Source: a virus
Reading direction: 5' to 3' (one strand)
IMG/VR virus record: IMGVR_UViG_3300034061_003276
Span: 1-22,275 of that record
Length of the DNA stretch: 22,275 nt
Shown here: one piece after another, positions 1,276 to 18,700 of the stretch
Position numbering within the stretch: position 1 is the stretch's first letter
Layout: the number at the start of each line of letters is the position of its first letter
The notes under the pieces: generated by a model
The model's database searches: none
Told to the model about the DNA's origin: nothing
Seen by the model: only the letters and a program-made list of their open reading frames with translations
Made by a program: the position numbers and the translations under genes

Positions 1276-3413
1276 CACTCTGCTCCATAAACTGCCGCCC
1301 CTGCTGTCACTGCGGAGCCGGTAGGAATCCACGACCTGTCGTCTGACAACGCCTTTAGCACCTTGTTGCGCTGAACTGCGGGAACTTTCTCAAGCGCTTT
1401 GAGCAAGTCCTCATTGCTGCGCAACGACTTAATGATGATGTCCATTGTCTTGACGTCTGCTTTTGCACCCAAGATCGTCAAAATGCGATTGCTGGCGGTC
1501 ACTGTTGGGTCAAAGAACGCCGGCAATTTAAACATGCCTTTGTTGCGCTGCAAGATGCCTTCGATTGGCTCGCGGCCTTCACCGATCGCCGTCTCAATCG
1601 CGCCGCGCCGTTCGATGCCTTCCGCCAACTTGTTAAGCGTCGGATACTTGGCGCCCATCTCTTTAACGATGTCGTAGTTGCCGACGCCGAACACCTTCTC
1701 GATCTCTTTCGGATTGTCGCCGCGCACCAAGCGCACGTACTCGTCAGGCGAACGCTTGAACAAGTCGAGCGCTTTGGCCGCCAGCTTCTGCTGGTTGACT
1801 TCTGTCATGCCAGACTCAAAAGCGTCCAGATAGCTGCGCCAACCTTTACCGCCAGCCGCCTCAATGGCGTCGTCGATGATGGGTTTGATGCGAGACAAGA
1901 CGCCCGCTGCCACCTGACGGGCTGCGGGGGAGTCTGGGTCTTTAAACAAAGTCTCAATAGCACTGTTGACAGAGTTCTTGCGCAGCGCGTACAGCGCATC
2001 GGGAGAGATGATTCCGCCGGCCTTTGTCCACTTATCAATGTCGCGGATGACCTTCCCAAGCGCGGCCTCGAATTGGTCGTTGCCGGCCATCTCGTCAATC
2101 TTGCCAAGTTCTTTGACCTTGCCGATAAAGTCAGCCGGGCGCAGCGGCTTCAAGCCTTCGGCCTCTAGGCTGTCCAGTTGGTACTTGGCAAAGCGCGCCG
2201 CGTCACCAAACAGCAGCGATTCATCAGCCGATTTTGCCGCGTAATTTTCGGCATTGTCTGCCATTTGCATTAGCCGTTCGCTGCGATCTGGGCGCTGACC
2301 CATGAGAACTTGCGGCTGCGCGGCTTCTTCACCTGCGCGTGCTTTGGCGGTAGTTTTTGCGCGCTCTAGCATGCGAACATCTTCGACCTTGCCAGTAGCG
2401 GCGCCTTGGAAACGTGACACATCAGTCTCTAAACCTGGCGCGTACTTCCCTGCTAGCCCGGCGTCACTCAACGCCTGTTCGCGCATCGGCGCGGTCAAAC
2501 CGCGCAGGTTTTGTTTCGTAGCCTCGCGGGTCGCACGGGCTTCGGTTTGTGTGATGCCGCCCGCAAGACGCGCAAGCTCATTAAGTTGGTCTTCGCCTTG
2601 CAAACGCCGTAACGCGTTGACGGTGTTGTCCAAGTCTTTCTTTGCTGCAAGGTCTACAAGCGAAATAAACGCAGGGCGCGACACGCCAACAAGCGCCTCG
2701 TCAGGAATTCCAGTGCCGGCTGCGCGGAGCGCTGCTATAGCGTTTGGCATGTTCTGCTCGCCAATCGCCTCCCGCAACACATTAACCGCGCGGCGTTGGG
2801 GCAGCCCCATGCTAAGTACGTCCATTGCGGCGCCGGTGCCTTTCGCGCCTGCCTTAACAAGACCGCTTAATGCAGGCCCAGCAACCGCACCAATGCCAGC
2901 CCCTGTTTCGATGTCTTCGCCAGTCATAGCCGCAGCACCGCCACCTACGGCAGCGCCTGCGCCCATGCGCGCGGGAAGAGACGGGCCAACAAAGCCGCCA
3001 GTCTCAAGCGCTCTTGCCAAGCCTGGCAAACCAGCCCGAGCGGCGCCTACCCCCAGCGCGGGACCAAGGCCCGCAGTGCCTGCGATTTGAGTGCCTACGC
3101 GGCCTACTGTGCGCCCTGTGGCGTCTGGCTCAGCGCCTAGCACTTCGGTAGAAAACTGTTGGATCAGCGCGCGCCTACGCGCGTTCTCAGCAGCGCTCTC
3201 AAACGGTCGTATGACCGTAGAACCAATGCTGCCCAGCCCTTCTACAATACCGCCGCGTATGTTGCGTTCGGCCTGCGCAATTGACGCGCGCGCTTCGGGC
3301 GAAATGAAAGGAATTGCTTCAGCGGTGGACAGACGCGCGGCAGACGGCGCGGGCTCATCTAAGAAACGAATTTTGCTTGACTGCGGCTGTTCATCGAGGA
3401 ATCTGATGCCCAT
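1275..3413 (-). CDS. Probable DNA ejection / internal virion protein (712 aa, P22 gp16 position)
   Basis: This is the last of three consecutive large genes that follow the neck and tail genes, the place where P22 carries its three ejection proteins (gp7, gp20, gp16). The N-terminus has two short copies of a motif, IRFLDE at residues 3-8 and 15-20. A Gly/Ala-rich, weakly hydrophobic zone follows (about 90-190, including GAGAAVGGGAAAMTG), which could insert in membranes. From about 200 to the end the protein is mostly helical and charged. Size, order and composition support the call; direct sequence similarity to P22 gp16 is not obvious by eye. A ribosome site AGAGGTG lies just upstream, overlapping the end of the previous gene. 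Confidence 0.65.
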   Translation of the reverse strand: MGIRFLDEQPQSSKIRFLDEPAPSAARLSTAEAIPFISPEARASIAQAERNIRGGIVEGLGSIGSTVIRPFESAAENARRRALIQQFSTEVLGAEPDATGRTVGRVGTQIAGTAGLGPALGVGAARAGLPGLARALETGGFVGPSLPARMGAGAAVGGGAAAMTGEDIETGAGIGAVAGPALSGLVKAGAKGTGAAMDVLSMGLPQRRAVNVLREAIGEQNMPNAIAALRAAGTGIPDEALVGVSRPAFISLVDLAAKKDLDNTVNALRRLQGEDQLNELARLAGGITQTEARATREATKQNLRGLTAPMREQALSDAGLAGKYAPGLETDVSRFQGAATGKVEDVRMLERAKTTAKARAGEEAAQPQVLMGQRPDRSERLMQMADNAENYAAKSADESLLFGDAARFAKYQLDSLEAEGLKPLRPADFIGKVKELGKIDEMAGNDQFEAALGKVIRDIDKWTKAGGIISPDALYALRKNSVNSAIETLFKDPDSPAARQVAAGVLSRIKPIIDDAIEAAGGKGWRSYLDAFESGMTEVNQQKLAAKALDLFKRSPDEYVRLVRGDNPKEIEKVFGVGNYDIVKEMGAKYPTLNKLAEGIERRGAIETAIGEGREPIEGILQRNKGMFKLPAFFDPTVTASNRILTILGAKADVKTMDIIIKSLRSNEDLLKALEKVPAVQRNKVLKALSDDRSWIPTGSAVTAGAAVYGAE

Positions 3414-3415
3414 GA

Positions 3416-4921
3416 TTAGTTCACCTCTGCTGGCCTACCGCCGACAGTAATCCGTGTGCCTCTGGGCAGATTTGCCGCTTCAGCTTCGTGCACAGTGCGA
3501 AACGCGGGAACTTCCGACGGCGCTGTGCCGCGCGTCGTGCTACTGCTGCTGCGGCGGTCTGTGACGCCGGGCCGACCACCGGGCGATGGTGTCGGCGCAG
3601 GCTCTTGCGCGTAGAACTGTTTTAGATTCTCAAGAATCTTCGTCGCGGCTTCATAGCTTTGCGACGGGTCGGATATTGCGTCCAAGTTTAGTCGCAGTTC
3701 TACATTCGAGTTGAGTTCTGACGCTGACTTTCCGGTCAACTTCTTAAGCGCGGACATCAACGCCATGCGCGATGATTTAATCTCATCGCGCAAAGATTGC
3801 GCTCTAGCGCCTACTGCGCGGCCAGCAACTTGACCAGGACCGCTAGCTTCAATAGACGACAGGACGTTACTAACCGCACCGCGCTGTTCGCTTGGGATAG
3901 CGCGCTGTCGGTTTAGCTCATCAAAATTTGTTTGCAAGGTATCAAGAATGTCAAGGAATTGACCGCGCGCTGTAGCTTGCTCTGTTGCGCGTTTACCCGC
4001 CGACGGCTCTTTGCCGGCAATACCTACAACGCCTGGTGCAGTAAAGCCACCGCCGGTATAGACGCGCGCATCAACCTTCAACATGCGCGTAGAATCGTCG
4101 GGGTCAACAACGTCCGTAAGCGTAGGCGCGGCTGAACGACCTAGCGCGTCGATGCGGTTTTCAACTTCAGCGCGCTGCATGCTGTTGGGCGGCAAAGTGT
4201 CGCGCAGTTCTTGCAGGCGTTGCAACTCGGGTTTTCTTTCAGTTGTTTGTCTGTCCGCTGCCGCGCGCGCAGAAATCATTGCCGCTTCAGCGCGCTGCCG
4301 CTCGAAAGGCAACTTAGCTGCTGCGGTCGCAGCTTGCGACGTAGCTGCTCGCGCGCGCGCTTGCCCCGCCTCAGCAGTCATTTGCGCATTTGCCAAGCTG
4401 CCTCGCTGATATGCCGTCATCGATGCATTCGCAAGTCGTTTGATCGTTGACCCATCGCCATAGGTCTGAAGCATGCGAAGATCGTCTTCAGTCACGCCGG
4501 GGATGCGAGCGATCTGCGGACGTACGGCGTCAAGAGTTGACTGATCACTGACGCTTGACAGAAGCTGACCCATCAGACCTATGCGGTCTGTTTGCGCCTT
4601 GATTCGAGCTGCTTCAGCTTCTCGATTTGCTTTATCTAACTTAAGCTGCGTCTCGGCGTACTGCGCGCCCTTGGCTCCAAGCCCGCGCTGTTGCAATGCT
4701 GCGACGCGCTCTTCTAAGCTCATGCCGGGTTTAAAACCAGAAAGCACCGTTTCGTAGTCTTGTTCACGGCGCTGCTCGCGCATGGCGTTCTGGATCTTCA
4801 TCTCGCCCATACGCTGTTCTTGGAGGGCGTTCTGGATCTGCGCTACGCGACCTGATTGGGCTAGCGGATCGGGCAGTTGCAGCCCTTGCACTTGCAAAGC
4901 GATGTTTGGTTGAAGCGGCAT
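3416..4921 (-). CDS. Probable DNA ejection / internal virion protein (501 aa, P22 gp20 position)
   Basis: The middle gene of the three-gene ejection block. The product is Gln/Ala/Arg-rich and almost entirely helical: QNALQEQRMGEMKIQNAMRE near residues 31-50 and a long region at about 100-270 have coiled-coil character. The last 70 residues are Pro/Ser/Thr-rich and probably flexible (PAPTPSPGGRPG, then SSSSTTRG), ending in a small RGTRITVGGRPAEV segment. P22 gp20 is a similar-sized helical injection protein, so the placement and composition agree. AAGGA stands seven bases before the ATG. I see no enzyme motif. The function is inferred from order and composition rather than clear homology. Confidence 0.65.
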   Translation of the reverse strand: MPLQPNIALQVQGLQLPDPLAQSGRVAQIQNALQEQRMGEMKIQNAMREQRREQDYETVLSGFKPGMSLEERVAALQQRGLGAKGAQYAETQLKLDKANREAEAARIKAQTDRIGLMGQLLSSVSDQSTLDAVRPQIARIPGVTEDDLRMLQTYGDGSTIKRLANASMTAYQRGSLANAQMTAEAGQARARAATSQAATAAAKLPFERQRAEAAMISARAAADRQTTERKPELQRLQELRDTLPPNSMQRAEVENRIDALGRSAAPTLTDVVDPDDSTRMLKVDARVYTGGGFTAPGVVGIAGKEPSAGKRATEQATARGQFLDILDTLQTNFDELNRQRAIPSEQRGAVSNVLSSIEASGPGQVAGRAVGARAQSLRDEIKSSRMALMSALKKLTGKSASELNSNVELRLNLDAISDPSQSYEAATKILENLKQFYAQEPAPTPSPGGRPGVTDRRSSSSTTRGTAPSEVPAFRTVHEAEAANLPRGTRITVGGRPAEVN

Positions 4922-13917: not shown

Positions 13918-13955
13918 AAATAGAAACGAGGCTAGTAGATCCCTACTAGCCTCGT
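13918..13955 (-). terminator. Strong intrinsic terminator after the coat gene
   Basis: A perfect 13-bp stem (ACGAGGCTAGTAG / CTACTAGCCTCGT) with a four-base loop is followed on the minus strand by TTCTATTT. It starts eight bases after the coat stop codon and closes the scaffold-coat unit. Confidence 0.88.
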
Positions 13956-13963
13956 ATTAGACG

Positions 13964-15166
13964 TTAGCCCCAGAGGCGTACGCCCATTTGCGGACGGATG
14001 ACCGAGAAGCCGTAGAGCACGTCAATACGGCAGGGCAGACGGTCATTGTTGATGTCGTATTGACGAACAATACGCATCGAGATGCCGTTATGCACCTGGC
14101 GCGAGGCCATGTCTACGCCTTGCGGCATCAGCAGGTCAGCGGTCGCAAACGTGATCGCATCTTTGTGATAGACCAGGTTTTGCGGGTACTGAGTGCTGGC
14201 GCTACCCAAGAAGGTCACCACAGCGCTGGCTTGCGGGAACGCATCGATCGTCGCAAGCGCATGGCCGGAGGTGTACATCGCGGGGCTGACGCTGACGGTG
14301 TACGCGCCGCCGGTGGCGGTTGCGTCCGCAGTGGCCACGAACTGTTGCAGGCTGCCGGTCGACTCACGAGTCTGCGGGTTGACCGCAAAGACGTTGGCAA
14401 CGGTGAACACGTCACCTTGCTTGATCGTCTGCGTGCCAGTGCCCGTGATCAGGATCGTGGTTGAGCCTTGAGCCGTCACAGCGCTGGTCACCGTGTGCGA
14501 ACCCGTGCGGGTGCCGGTGGTGTGCTGCTTGATTGACTGCGACATGCTGACTTCTTCAAAGCCCAGCACACCCTCGCCCATCAGGCCATTCTTGAACTGA
14601 CGGCTGATGGTGTTGGTGGGGTTGAACAGACCCTTCATGCCTTCGACGAGGCCAGCGTTTGCAGCCGGGTTGACGGTGGCATAGCGGGGAGCCATGACCG
14701 CAGCGGCTTCGTTCAGCTTCTGTTGGCCTTGCAGCAGCACCAAGCTGGTTCCGGGCGTGGTGCCTGGGGTGCCAACCGACTGGTAGATGCTCTTGAAGCT
14801 GTTGGCAACGTCAGCGTCGATGCTAGAGGCAAGCTGACTAATACGAGGCTTCAGCACACGCTCTGCGAAGTCATCGAGCTGCATGGTCAGCTCAGCGGTC
14901 GTGAAGTTCACGCCGATGTGCTTTTGGCTCGAAACAGTCAGAGTGGTGAACTGCTCGTTGTCGTCTTGAACTTGCAGCGCAGCACCATCGGTCACCAGTG
15001 CGCGGTCCGGCAGACGGATACGAAGCGTGGAGCCGATTTTTGCGCCTTGGACAGCAAAGCTGTCATCGTACTGACGGTTGACCGTCCGGGTGATCACCAG
15101 GTTGTTCTCAAGGATTTCGAGAGCCTTCCGGGTGATCATGTCAATCGTAAGGATTGAGTTAGCCAT
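13964..15166 (-). CDS. Major capsid (coat) protein, P22 gp5-like (400 aa)
   Basis: The opening (MANSILTIDMITRKALEILE, then ENNLVITRTVNRQYDDSF) and the following LRIRLPDRALVTDG and HIGVNFTTAELTMQLDDFAE are characteristic of the P22 coat family, an HK97-fold protein that forms the icosahedral shell. Residues about 220-315 (VTSAVTAQGSTTILITG, GDVFTVANVFAVNPQTRE, QQFVATADATATGGAYTVSV) match the insertion domain carried by this family. The C-terminus (RIDVLYGFSVIRPQMGVRLWG) is also typical. P22 gp5 is 430 residues. AGGAG lies 11 bases before the ATG, and the scaffold gene ends 24 bases upstream, consistent with co-expression. A strong terminator follows. Confidence 0.93.
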   Translation of the reverse strand: MANSILTIDMITRKALEILENNLVITRTVNRQYDDSFAVQGAKIGSTLRIRLPDRALVTDGAALQVQDDNEQFTTLTVSSQKHIGVNFTTAELTMQLDDFAERVLKPRISQLASSIDADVANSFKSIYQSVGTPGTTPGTSLVLLQGQQKLNEAAAVMAPRYATVNPAANAGLVEGMKGLFNPTNTISRQFKNGLMGEGVLGFEEVSMSQSIKQHTTGTRTGSHTVTSAVTAQGSTTILITGTGTQTIKQGDVFTVANVFAVNPQTRESTGSLQQFVATADATATGGAYTVSVSPAMYTSGHALATIDAFPQASAVVTFLGSASTQYPQNLVYHKDAITFATADLLMPQGVDMASRQVHNGISMRIVRQYDINNDRLPCRIDVLYGFSVIRPQMGVRLWG

Positions 15167-15190
15167 GATCTATAAAACTCCTAATTTGAA

Positions 15191-15946
15191 TTAACGTCCG
15201 TGTTTCGCTTCCCACGCCTTGACCTGTCGTTGCCGCTCGGCTGCGATCCAGTCGCTCGTGCTCATTGCTTTGATTGAGCGCGGGTCGGTGGTGTCGTAAG
15301 CCGGTGCGCCAGAGGCGCGTGCTGCAACAGGCTGAATAGGTGCCGGAGCGCTGGATGGTTTTTTGGTGGGTGGACTGGCGGCCACTTTGGCCTCAATCTT
15401 CCCGATCTCTTTGGCCTGCAAGAACGGCGATAGACGCGAGATACGATCAGCTTCTTTTGGATTGGACCCGAGAAAATATGCTATGTCGGGGCCGATCTCT
15501 GACGCCTGAATTGTTTGAGCCATCACGGTCGAGATTTTCAGGCTTGGGTTGTAGGCGACTTGCTCGAAGTCGTCATACTTATCCCGTGCCTGCTCTTCCT
15601 TCTCGTGGTATGACTCAACCACTGCTGCTTGCTGACGCTCCAGTTCCCGTTGCTGGAGAAGCTGCTCGGCTTTCTGCGTGGCCAGTGCTTCGGCGTACGC
15701 TTCGACCGACTCAAACTTATCCTGCGATACAGGTTCTGCGGGCGCTGCTGGCGCCTTCGGACGCTCACGTTCCCAAGACCTACGCTCTCTTGCGAGACGC
15801 TTGCCAATCATCGAGTCCACTTCTTCTTGAGTGAACGTCTTGATTGTAGTTTGTTGCTCTTCCGCCGATACTGCTACAGGTTCAGGCGCGGGCGTCGCTA
15901 CCTGTTCCGGCGCGGTTGGTTCCGCTACTACTTCAGTGTTTTCCAT
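15191..15946 (-). CDS. Scaffolding protein (251 aa)
   Basis: A highly charged, helical protein directly upstream of the coat gene. An acidic, Pro/Ala-rich N-terminus (about 1-35) is followed by FTQEEVDSMIGKRLARERR, a motif common to phage scaffold proteins. A long Gln/Glu/Arg helix follows (about 85-135, QLLQQRELERQQAAVVES), and the protein ends with a basic helix (WIAAERQRQVKAWEAKHGR) of the kind that contacts coat subunits. P22 gp8 is 303 residues with the coat-binding helix at its C-terminus. It directs procapsid assembly and is absent from the mature virion. A promoter and 5' hairpin precede it; its own ribosome site (AGAG) is weak. Confidence 0.88.
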   Translation of the reverse strand: MENTEVVAEPTAPEQVATPAPEPVAVSAEEQQTTIKTFTQEEVDSMIGKRLARERRSWERERPKAPAAPAEPVSQDKFESVEAYAEALATQKAEQLLQQRELERQQAAVVESYHEKEEQARDKYDDFEQVAYNPSLKISTVMAQTIQASEIGPDIAYFLGSNPKEADRISRLSPFLQAKEIGKIEAKVAASPPTKKPSSAPAPIQPVAARASGAPAYDTTDPRSIKAMSTSDWIAAERQRQVKAWEAKHGR

Positions 15947-15964
15947 GATTACTCTGGCGAGTGC

Positions 15965-15981
15965 CTGGTGGACCGCACCAG
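15965..15981 (-). promoter_or_regulatory. Hairpin at the predicted 5' end of the scaffold-coat mRNA
   Basis: A six-base stem (CTGGTG / CACCAG) with a five-base loop begins about one base after the predicted transcription start. No U-tract follows, so it is not a terminator. Hairpins at the very 5' end are known to protect transcripts from decay; that role here is inference. Confidence 0.5.
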
Positions 15982-15989
15982 TACGGTTA

Positions 15990-16017
15990 TTTATACAGTA
16001 GTTTCAGGAGGTGTCAA
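15990..16017 (-). promoter_or_regulatory. Sigma70-type promoter for scaffold and coat
   Basis: The minus strand reads TTGACA, 16 bases, then TATAAA, with TG directly before the -10 box. The -35 is a perfect consensus and the -10 matches five of six. It lies inside the last codons of the 53-aa gene, some 45-70 bases before the scaffold ATG. The predicted start is near base 15982. Confidence 0.75.
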
Positions 16018-16152
16018 GTTACTTTGTTGCTGAACCTGCTCACGCAGCTTTTGCCACAGCGCAACCGACATCTCCAACGGCAGTTTGCCTAGCCCCATCG
16101 CAATGATGTTGGCTTCCTCTACCGTAATCTTGATGGTGAACTCTTGCATCAT
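15991..16152 (-). CDS. Small conserved-looking phage protein (53 aa)
   Basis: Complete frame beginning MMQEFTIKITVEEANIIAMG and continuing LGKLPLEMSVALWQKLREQV. The pattern of a short beta strand, then 'EEAN.I..GLG.LP' and a final amphipathic helix, recurs in small phage proteins encoded next to fibre genes. The tandem ATGATG overlaps the previous stop, so either Met could start; the first gives an ATGA junction. The last nine codons double as a strong promoter. Function unknown; it may form a dimer or partner with a structural protein. Confidence 0.75.
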   Translation of the reverse strand: MMQEFTIKITVEEANIIAMGLGKLPLEMSVALWQKLREQVQQQSNLTPPETTV

Positions 16153-18337: not shown

Positions 18338-18700
18338 TTACGCAAGGAATTTCAGTTTATAGAGCGTCGATAGATACTGCCCGACGATCTCGTCAATGAT
18401 GTTTTGGAGCGGCGTGTCGTCCTTCTCACACACCTTGTACCGCATCTCTTCGATGTCTGCAAGCGAGTCTTTGAGAAACTCAATGACGTCGGTTGTCTTC
18501 TTAGCCGACATCAGCGTGATTGGCCCGATCAGCCCGTGCCGGCCTTGGTAGGCTTCGGCAAACTTGTCGGCAAGTTCTACGATGTTGTTGTAGAAATGGC
18601 GCAGCGCTTTGTGTTTGGCGTACGACCTTGTATTCAAATGTACGCTATGCGTCACGTCTCGCGCTAGGAACAAGGTGCCGATAAAGTCTGCGCAGCTCAT
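18338..18700 (-). CDS. DUF5856-like protein (120 aa), helical, ferritin-like impression
   Basis: The product (MSCADFIGTLFLARDVTHSV, then HLNTRSYAKHKALRHFYNNI, then VELADKFAEAYQGRHG) is almost wholly helical. It matches my memory of the DUF5856 family from tailed phages. The spacing of His, Glu and Asp residues over long helices recalls the four-helix bundles of Dps/ferritin proteins, though I cannot confirm a metal site. The start overlaps the portal stop as ATGA, so it is translated with the portal. A role in packaging, DNA protection or particle assembly is possible; none is established by the sequence. Confidence 0.78.
   Translation of the reverse strand: MSCADFIGTLFLARDVTHSVHLNTRSYAKHKALRHFYNNIVELADKFAEAYQGRHGLIGPITLMSAKKTTDVIEFLKDSLADIEEMRYKVCEKDDTPLQNIIDEIVGQYLSTLYKLKFLA

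Follow-up and report, generated by a model that had tools for sequence, protein, structure and literature searches.

The scaffolding protein gene of a P22-like podovirus and of many of its relatives is preceded by a conserved leader pseudoknot, which lies between a promoter-like sequence and the gene and is the main new finding of this analysis. The DNA analysed (hereafter the window, meaning the whole stretch) is a 22,275-base virus record whose minus strand carries P22-like podovirus late genes, among which we identified those for the portal (PF16510), scaffold (PHROG 8865), coat (PF11651), gp4 tail factor and gp10. A first-pass annotation had named the scaffold and coat genes, correctly (Table 1), and had framed the pair as a transcription unit of its own, running from promoter to terminator; what it missed is the element between that promoter and the scaffold ATG, which from its sequence is a predicted H-type RNA pseudoknot at 15987-15965 on the minus strand. 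The RNA structure is, in our judgement, almost certainly real and seems not to have been reported previously. No Rfam family matched the leader in the window or in 13 relatives (E up to 1, and also at gathering scores), and no earlier description was found in the literature searched, which left subscription papers mostly outside its reach. Our best explanation as a whole combines a structured leader, translation repressed by the scaffold and a partly independent capsid cassette, and we give it a probability of about 0.5.

Table 1. Features of the scaffold and coat region, in window coordinates
Feature	Position	Strand	Basis or remark
53-aa gene, function not assigned, contains promoter boxes	15991..16152	-	relatives compared
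-35 box TTGACA, inside 3′ end of 53-aa gene	16012..16017	-	kept in L004, absent in L003
-10 box TATAAA, 16-nt spacer	15990..15995	-	overlaps TAA stop (15993-15991) of 53-aa gene
Predicted transcription start region, 7-8 nt past -10 box	15981..15984	-	geometry only; overlaps end of pseudoknot strand S1
Pseudoknot stem 1, 5′ strand ACCG	15984..15987	-	covariation, two independent alignments
Pseudoknot loop 1, UA, most conserved unpaired bases	15982..15983	-	UA in 73 of 109 pseudoknots
Pseudoknot stem 2, 5′ strand CUGGUG	15976..15981	-	covariation, two independent alignments
Pseudoknot stem 1, 3′ strand CGGU	15972..15975	-	covariation, two independent alignments
Pseudoknot loop 3, C	15971	-	
Pseudoknot stem 2, 3′ strand CACCAG	15965..15970	-	covariation, two independent alignments
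Hairpin ACUC-GCCA-GAGU over ribosome-binding region	15951..15962	-	helix 3 of covariation test
Scaffolding protein gene, 251 aa	15191..15946	-	PHROG 8865, E 3e-29
Coat protein gene, 400 aa	13964..15166	-	P22_CoatProtein PF11651, E 1e-38
Terminator-like 13-bp stem-loop at t-coat position	13926..13955	-	counterparts annotated in Sf6 and P22

A conserved pseudoknot in the scaffold leader

In the window the pseudoknot reads ACCG-UA-CUGGUG-CGGU-C-CACCAG, with stem 1 and stem 2 interleaved, and it is followed by a hairpin and then by the scaffold ATG. The corresponding hairpin of relatives takes forms such as GUUUC-UAAG-GAAAC, in which the Shine-Dalgarno sequence AAGGA occupies the loop and the 3′ arm. 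A linker between the stems is absent in 83 of the 109 pseudoknots, and loop 1 has 2 nt across a 6-bp stem. When the leaders were aligned side by side, this stretch proved much more strongly conserved than the promoter, with compensatory changes; the sequences of the stems vary freely, and the UA loop alone is fixed. Nested folding of single sequences was uninformative, being unable to represent a pseudoknot: the nested minimum-energy fold of the window is another hairpin, not the knot. RNAalifold recovered stem 2 only.

Base pairing was tested by covariation in two sets of leaders. The first set, 69 leaders in a plain MAFFT alignment, had 86% of its cells paired, and 13 of the 15 pairs had changes on both sides; 148 cells were changed on both sides, against 46.6 in shuffles, and the covariation score was 0.440, against at most 0.139 when the partners were slid by one to three columns. 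The hairpin (helix 3) had 83% of its cells paired, with changes on both sides in four of five pairs. The second, independent set consisted of 38 MW202520-like leaders that had not been used in finding the motif, and gave 93.7% of cells paired, 77 double changes (19.8 in shuffles) and a covariation score of 0.519 (at most 0.094 with partners slid). Pairs other than Watson-Crick comprised 13 G-U and 3 A-C once one lineage-specific column was left out, and this excess of G-U over A-C fits sense RNA. The counts replaced a comparison of sense and antisense energies, which was dropped because the scan geometry favours one strand.

With a covariance model built from the first set, we searched 80 further loci, retrieved with the scaffold of another phage, and located the element in 78, where it ends at the scaffold ATG; in the two loci that lacked a match (L137 and L166), the sequence starts just 27 and 25 bases before the gene. 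We also scanned 1.89 Mb with a strict pattern, which required the UA loop and Watson-Crick pairing at 9 of 9 positions, and classed the hits by the ORF that follows. The 108 matches comprised 97 scaffold leaders, five sites before a PHROG 6228 gene and six that were chance-like, as compared with three matches in shuffled sequence. Perfect nine-pair knots were present in 14 of 24 leaders of the BA3 group, 28 of 42 of the MW202520 group and 19 of 56 of the window group, with 0.4-1% in shuffles. At coat starts a pseudoknot was found in 4-9% of cases in the window and DSL groups and in 0-3% in the BA3 and MW202520 groups. The next gene start was discarded as a control for the pseudoknot search, since terminators there mimic paired stems, and the PAE2 group, whose energy test was noisy (52% of coat starts positive), was kept as a source of named examples only.

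With quite different sequences, the pseudoknot occurs in hundreds of metagenome contigs, nearly always in a fixed place directly before the scaffold gene. It precedes the scaffold of Thalassomonas phage BA3 (AACCG-UA-CCAGUG-CGGUU-CACUGG), and knots of the same geometry and different sequence are found in Vibrio phages VvAW1 and FGH, Pseudomonas phage PAE2 and phage DSL-LC05, as well as before the scaffold in metagenome contigs such as L196 and L243. Phage Sf6 probably has a good knot candidate. In the P22 branch the hairpin is kept by compensatory change, but within that branch a fitting second strand is confined to P22 and ST-87. The knot is absent before the PHROG 8865 scaffolds of Rhodoferax P26218, EBPR podovirus 1 and Xanthomonas PBR31.

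A variant pseudoknot, for example ACCG-UA-CCAGUU-CGGA-CAACUGG, lies 300-500 nt upstream of the first knot in several loci (L016:3824-3885, L072:3674-3717, L077:3691-3744, L041:2204-2257, L092:1199-1239 and L093:2616-2656). It precedes an unrelated 82-aa gene of PHROG 6228, function not assigned. Of the five strict-pattern matches of this kind, four of the assignments come from the listed ORF and that of L077 from its identity with L072. The copy before the 82-aa gene is possibly part of a small regulon, or else a duplicated leader.

Promoter and terminator signals around the capsid genes

A coat protein search gave 80 related loci with coat proteins 79-97% identical. In the window the coat gene has a ribosome-binding site of its own and starts 24 nt past the scaffold stop. 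In L003, the closest relative, the coat gene is broken near codon 19 by about 770 bases (L003:4240-5005) that hold an HNH-endonuclease-like ORF (4316-4855) and have group-I-intron-like ends; this insert gave no Rfam match at gathering scores. Another HNH-endonuclease-like ORF lies between scaffold and coat on the minus strand of L079 (L079:1448-2077), and in L286 (MW202674.1, 2501-4016) the coat is annotated as two pieces, 2501-2803 and 3021-4016, whose gap of about 200 bases is possibly an intron or other insert. Adjoining the portal gene of the window, at 18338-18700, is a gene of PHROG 858 ('starvation-inducible transcriptional regulator', E 4e-27), and DSL-LC05 has a 'DNA binding protein' of the same size at this position.

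The first-pass annotation placed a near-consensus promoter in the 3′ end of the small gene before scaffold and saw no other minus-strand promoter of that quality. We found the boxes as described, with 11 of 12 positions matching the sigma-70 consensus and a spacer within the 15-19 nt criterion, and they form the only site of at least 11/12 on either strand of the window, where dinucleotide shuffles give an expectation of 0.16. A standard consensus scan skips this TATAAA site, as it requires T at the final -10 position. Conservation of the boxes in close relatives of the same gene order is divided: L003 (coat 97% and scaffold 94% identical, with an identical p103-scaffold-coat order) has lost both, together with the 53-aa gene that contains them, whereas L004 keeps both. 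The 53-aa gene is present in L004 (94%), the only relative that shares it closely, and in L079 (49%).

The spacing of promoter and knot also varies. A distance of 6-9 nt from the end of the -10 box to the stem-1 core is typical of the BA3 and MW202520 groups and puts the predicted +1 at the 5′ edge of the knot; the register of L004 (TATAAATTTACACCCG) is about the same. The -10 box of the window lies about 4 nt closer to the leader than that of L004 (TATAAATAACCG); the four fewer bases therefore put the predicted start at about 15983-15982, inside or just after the first strand of the knot. On this geometry, a transcript born at the window promoter may lack the first strand of stem 1, and a readthrough transcript would carry the whole knot. 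The register may reflect two forms of the leader or a decaying promoter.

Promoter-like sequences are enriched at this place across the family. We took the highest sigma-70 score within the 60 nt that precede the scaffold leader in 66 loci, comprising the window and relatives; the mean was 8.1 bits, compared with 2.6 bits at other gene starts and 3.2 bits at random positions, and scores of at least 8 bits were reached by 50%, 0% and 4.6%, respectively. After reduction of redundancy, that level was reached in 73% of the BA3 group, 78% of the MW202520 group, 50% of the DSL group and 40% of the window group, against 8-15% overall in shuffles of the identical stretches (12-15% for the BA3 and MW202520 groups); the PAE2 group showed no significant excess over shuffles. 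In the 60 nt upstream of the leader in many relatives, among them L428, L443, L009 and L119, inverted repeats such as GTGGTaaaaACCAC and GTTGCGctgaCGCAAC overlap the -35 box, spacer or -10 box of the scaffold promoter, and repeats of this kind were modestly enriched in two groups (52-57% versus 32% in shuffles).

The terminator that had been reported 8 bases after the coat stop is likewise present, as a perfect 13-bp stem with the loop GGAT, followed by TTCTATTT. It agrees with the G+C-rich stem of 5 or more pairs and the T-rich tail expected of an intrinsic terminator, although the T run of TTCTATTT is interrupted, and only in the minus-strand direction does it have a terminator's form. A terminator-like hairpin follows coat in 26 of 79 relatives (33%) and the next gene (135 aa) in 41 of 71 (58%), with none of 79 after scaffold and 3% at random positions. 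Sf6 has an annotated post-coat terminator ('t coat') and P22 an annotated post-coat stem-loop; phage L has a putative terminator at the end of its procapsid module, and intra-operon terminators of this kind were said in 2020 to have no known role (PMC8022706). In the window two more terminator-like hairpins, at 13436-13417 and 12966-12949, come after the next two small genes, so that three stand in a row; such a succession would perhaps bring stepwise down-regulation of the late genes. Terminator-like hairpins with T-runs also stand directly before the scaffold gene in PAE2 (L085:3720-3760) and PBR31 (L087:4015-4060), where scaffold would therefore need its own promoter or antitermination.

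The separate transcription unit proposed by the first-pass annotation is thus better founded for the family than for the genome in which it was noticed. Across the family, promoter-like sites well above controls and terminators after coat or the next gene suggest that a promoter and a terminator belonging to the capsid genes are frequent in these phages, and we infer that transcripts start and stop at these sites. For the window the case for an independent promoter is weaker, the boxes being absent from its closest relative and retained in L004. A scaffold-coat transcription unit as reported is plausible, and partly known in kind.

Candidate roles of the leader

The knot is probably a switch that sets the amount of scaffold protein made, a reading drawn from sequence comparison. 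Because the leader touches the scaffold start codon, is absent before coat and has a hairpin that covers the ribosome-binding region, translational control is its simplest interpretation, and we favour control of scaffold translation by the leader RNA somewhat beyond even odds. In the mechanism we propose, the structured 5′ leader, made up of the H-type pseudoknot and the ribosome-binding-region hairpin, would set scaffold translation separately from that of coat. The likeliest form of control would be repression by unassembled scaffolding protein, which would bind the knot and hairpin, or stabilise them, and exclude ribosomes, while coat stays unrepressed. In most relatives a scaffold-coat transcript would arise from a sigma-70 promoter, beginning at the knot or close to it, and would be ended or thinned by a terminator past coat or the next gene, and the capsid genes would form a partly independent expression cassette within the late operon.

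Scaffold would be a natural regulator because autoregulation of the scaffold gene has been reported for P22 (Wyckoff and Casjens 1985, by its title as cited in PMC5744158) and because the P22 scaffold is recycled (PMC9576892), so that its synthesis should fall as scaffold accumulates. The stems vary freely, and any ligand must therefore read shape and loops. Autoregulation of the P22 scaffold reportedly acts post-transcriptionally. Against our reading, P22, for which alone autoregulation has been reported, may work by other means, since only the covarying hairpin is clear in the P22 branch proper. The PHROG 8865 scaffolds without a knot, the variant knot before an unrelated gene, the different nested fold of the window and the stem-1 strand that a transcript from its promoter may lack also count against it. 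A more far-reaching version, in which the leaders constitute an undescribed and widespread phage RNA family acting as the autogenous operator of scaffold, with a promoter phased to the knot and a capsid cassette under two layers of control inside the late operon, is a tentative possibility that we would not yet call probable.

The leader could instead be a general mRNA-stabilising or ribosome-loading element that protects the 5′ end, provides a standby site or insulates scaffold from variable upstream genes. Many transcripts would have a structured 5′ end, as their predicted starts lie at the knot or close to it, the leader persists while the genes upstream of scaffold differ between loci, and the stem sequences drift freely with only UA fixed, all of which would suit such a role. 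However, coat, the more abundant protein, does without the element (4-9% and 0-3% of coat starts), and a hairpin over the Shine-Dalgarno sequence suggests restraint rather than enhancement, so that we regard an unregulated element as unlikely, if worth keeping in mind. Action on RNA polymerase is a further alternative: the put sites of phage HK022 are RNA antiterminators, and a knot placed early in a transcription unit, which in many cases has an intrinsic terminator at its end, might similarly carry transcripts past the post-coat terminator. We consider this improbable, given that the knot offers no strongly conserved sequence for contact with polymerase, hugs the start codon and is linked to the Shine-Dalgarno hairpin, and that many knot carriers lack a terminator after coat.

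Two further readings concern the DNA. The repeats adjoin the promoter, and in several relatives the promoter itself is overlapped by other inverted repeats, as might be expected if they were operator sites for a transcription factor and formed no RNA structure; yet the stems change in compensatory fashion among close relatives, unlike a fixed operator sequence, G-U exceeds A-C outside one column, the two stems are interleaved as in a classic H-type knot, a 2-nt loop crossing a 6-bp stem, and the element is kept in L003, where no promoter was seen. Taken together, these points leave DNA operator sites a very slim chance. The boxes of the window could also be a coincidence of codons, with scaffold and coat transcribed from the late operon only, in keeping with their absence from L003, the closest relative, with a predicted start that cuts into stem 1 and with the single promoter reported for the P22 late operon (PMC8022706). 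We find coincidence doubtful, since the site is the sole 11/12 match in the window where 0.16 are expected, the boxes are kept in L004, and in relatives other promoter-like sequences occupy this place, well in excess of controls.

Known systems and meaning

The translational operator pseudoknot of T4 gene 32 is a model for repression by a gene's own product. Like the scaffold leader, it is an H-type pseudoknot upstream of a ribosome-binding site whose structure is kept more than its sequence. The T4 knot lies farther upstream, before an unstructured tract that gp32 coats, whereas here a covarying hairpin and no unstructured tract joins the knot directly to the start codon; the product differs too, being a scaffold where gp32 is a single-strand binding protein. 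The preQ1 riboswitch, which is an H-type pseudoknot riboswitch, likewise has a small knot near the ribosome-binding site; the scaffold leader differs from it in having no Rfam match or conserved aptamer sequence and in preceding late phage structural genes.

Closer in setting is the autoregulation of P22 gene 8, which concerns the same gene at the same place in a P22-type head module, with the same need to match scaffold to coat. The P22 leader hairpin differs in lying inside the end of the portal gene, and a pseudoknot is not consistently supported there. The 't coat' stem-loops of Sf6 and P22 stand a few bases past the coat stop, as in the window. The late operon of P22 and L is said to have one promoter, with no separate promoter for the P22 scaffold (PMC8022706), whereas many of the relatives studied here have a promoter-like site before scaffold.

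Self-control of the scaffold has long been known in P22 head assembly, and a compact candidate cis-element, present in cultured phages as well as in hundreds of relatives, makes the question testable. If the proposed control is true, the knot would add a new class of phage leader RNA.
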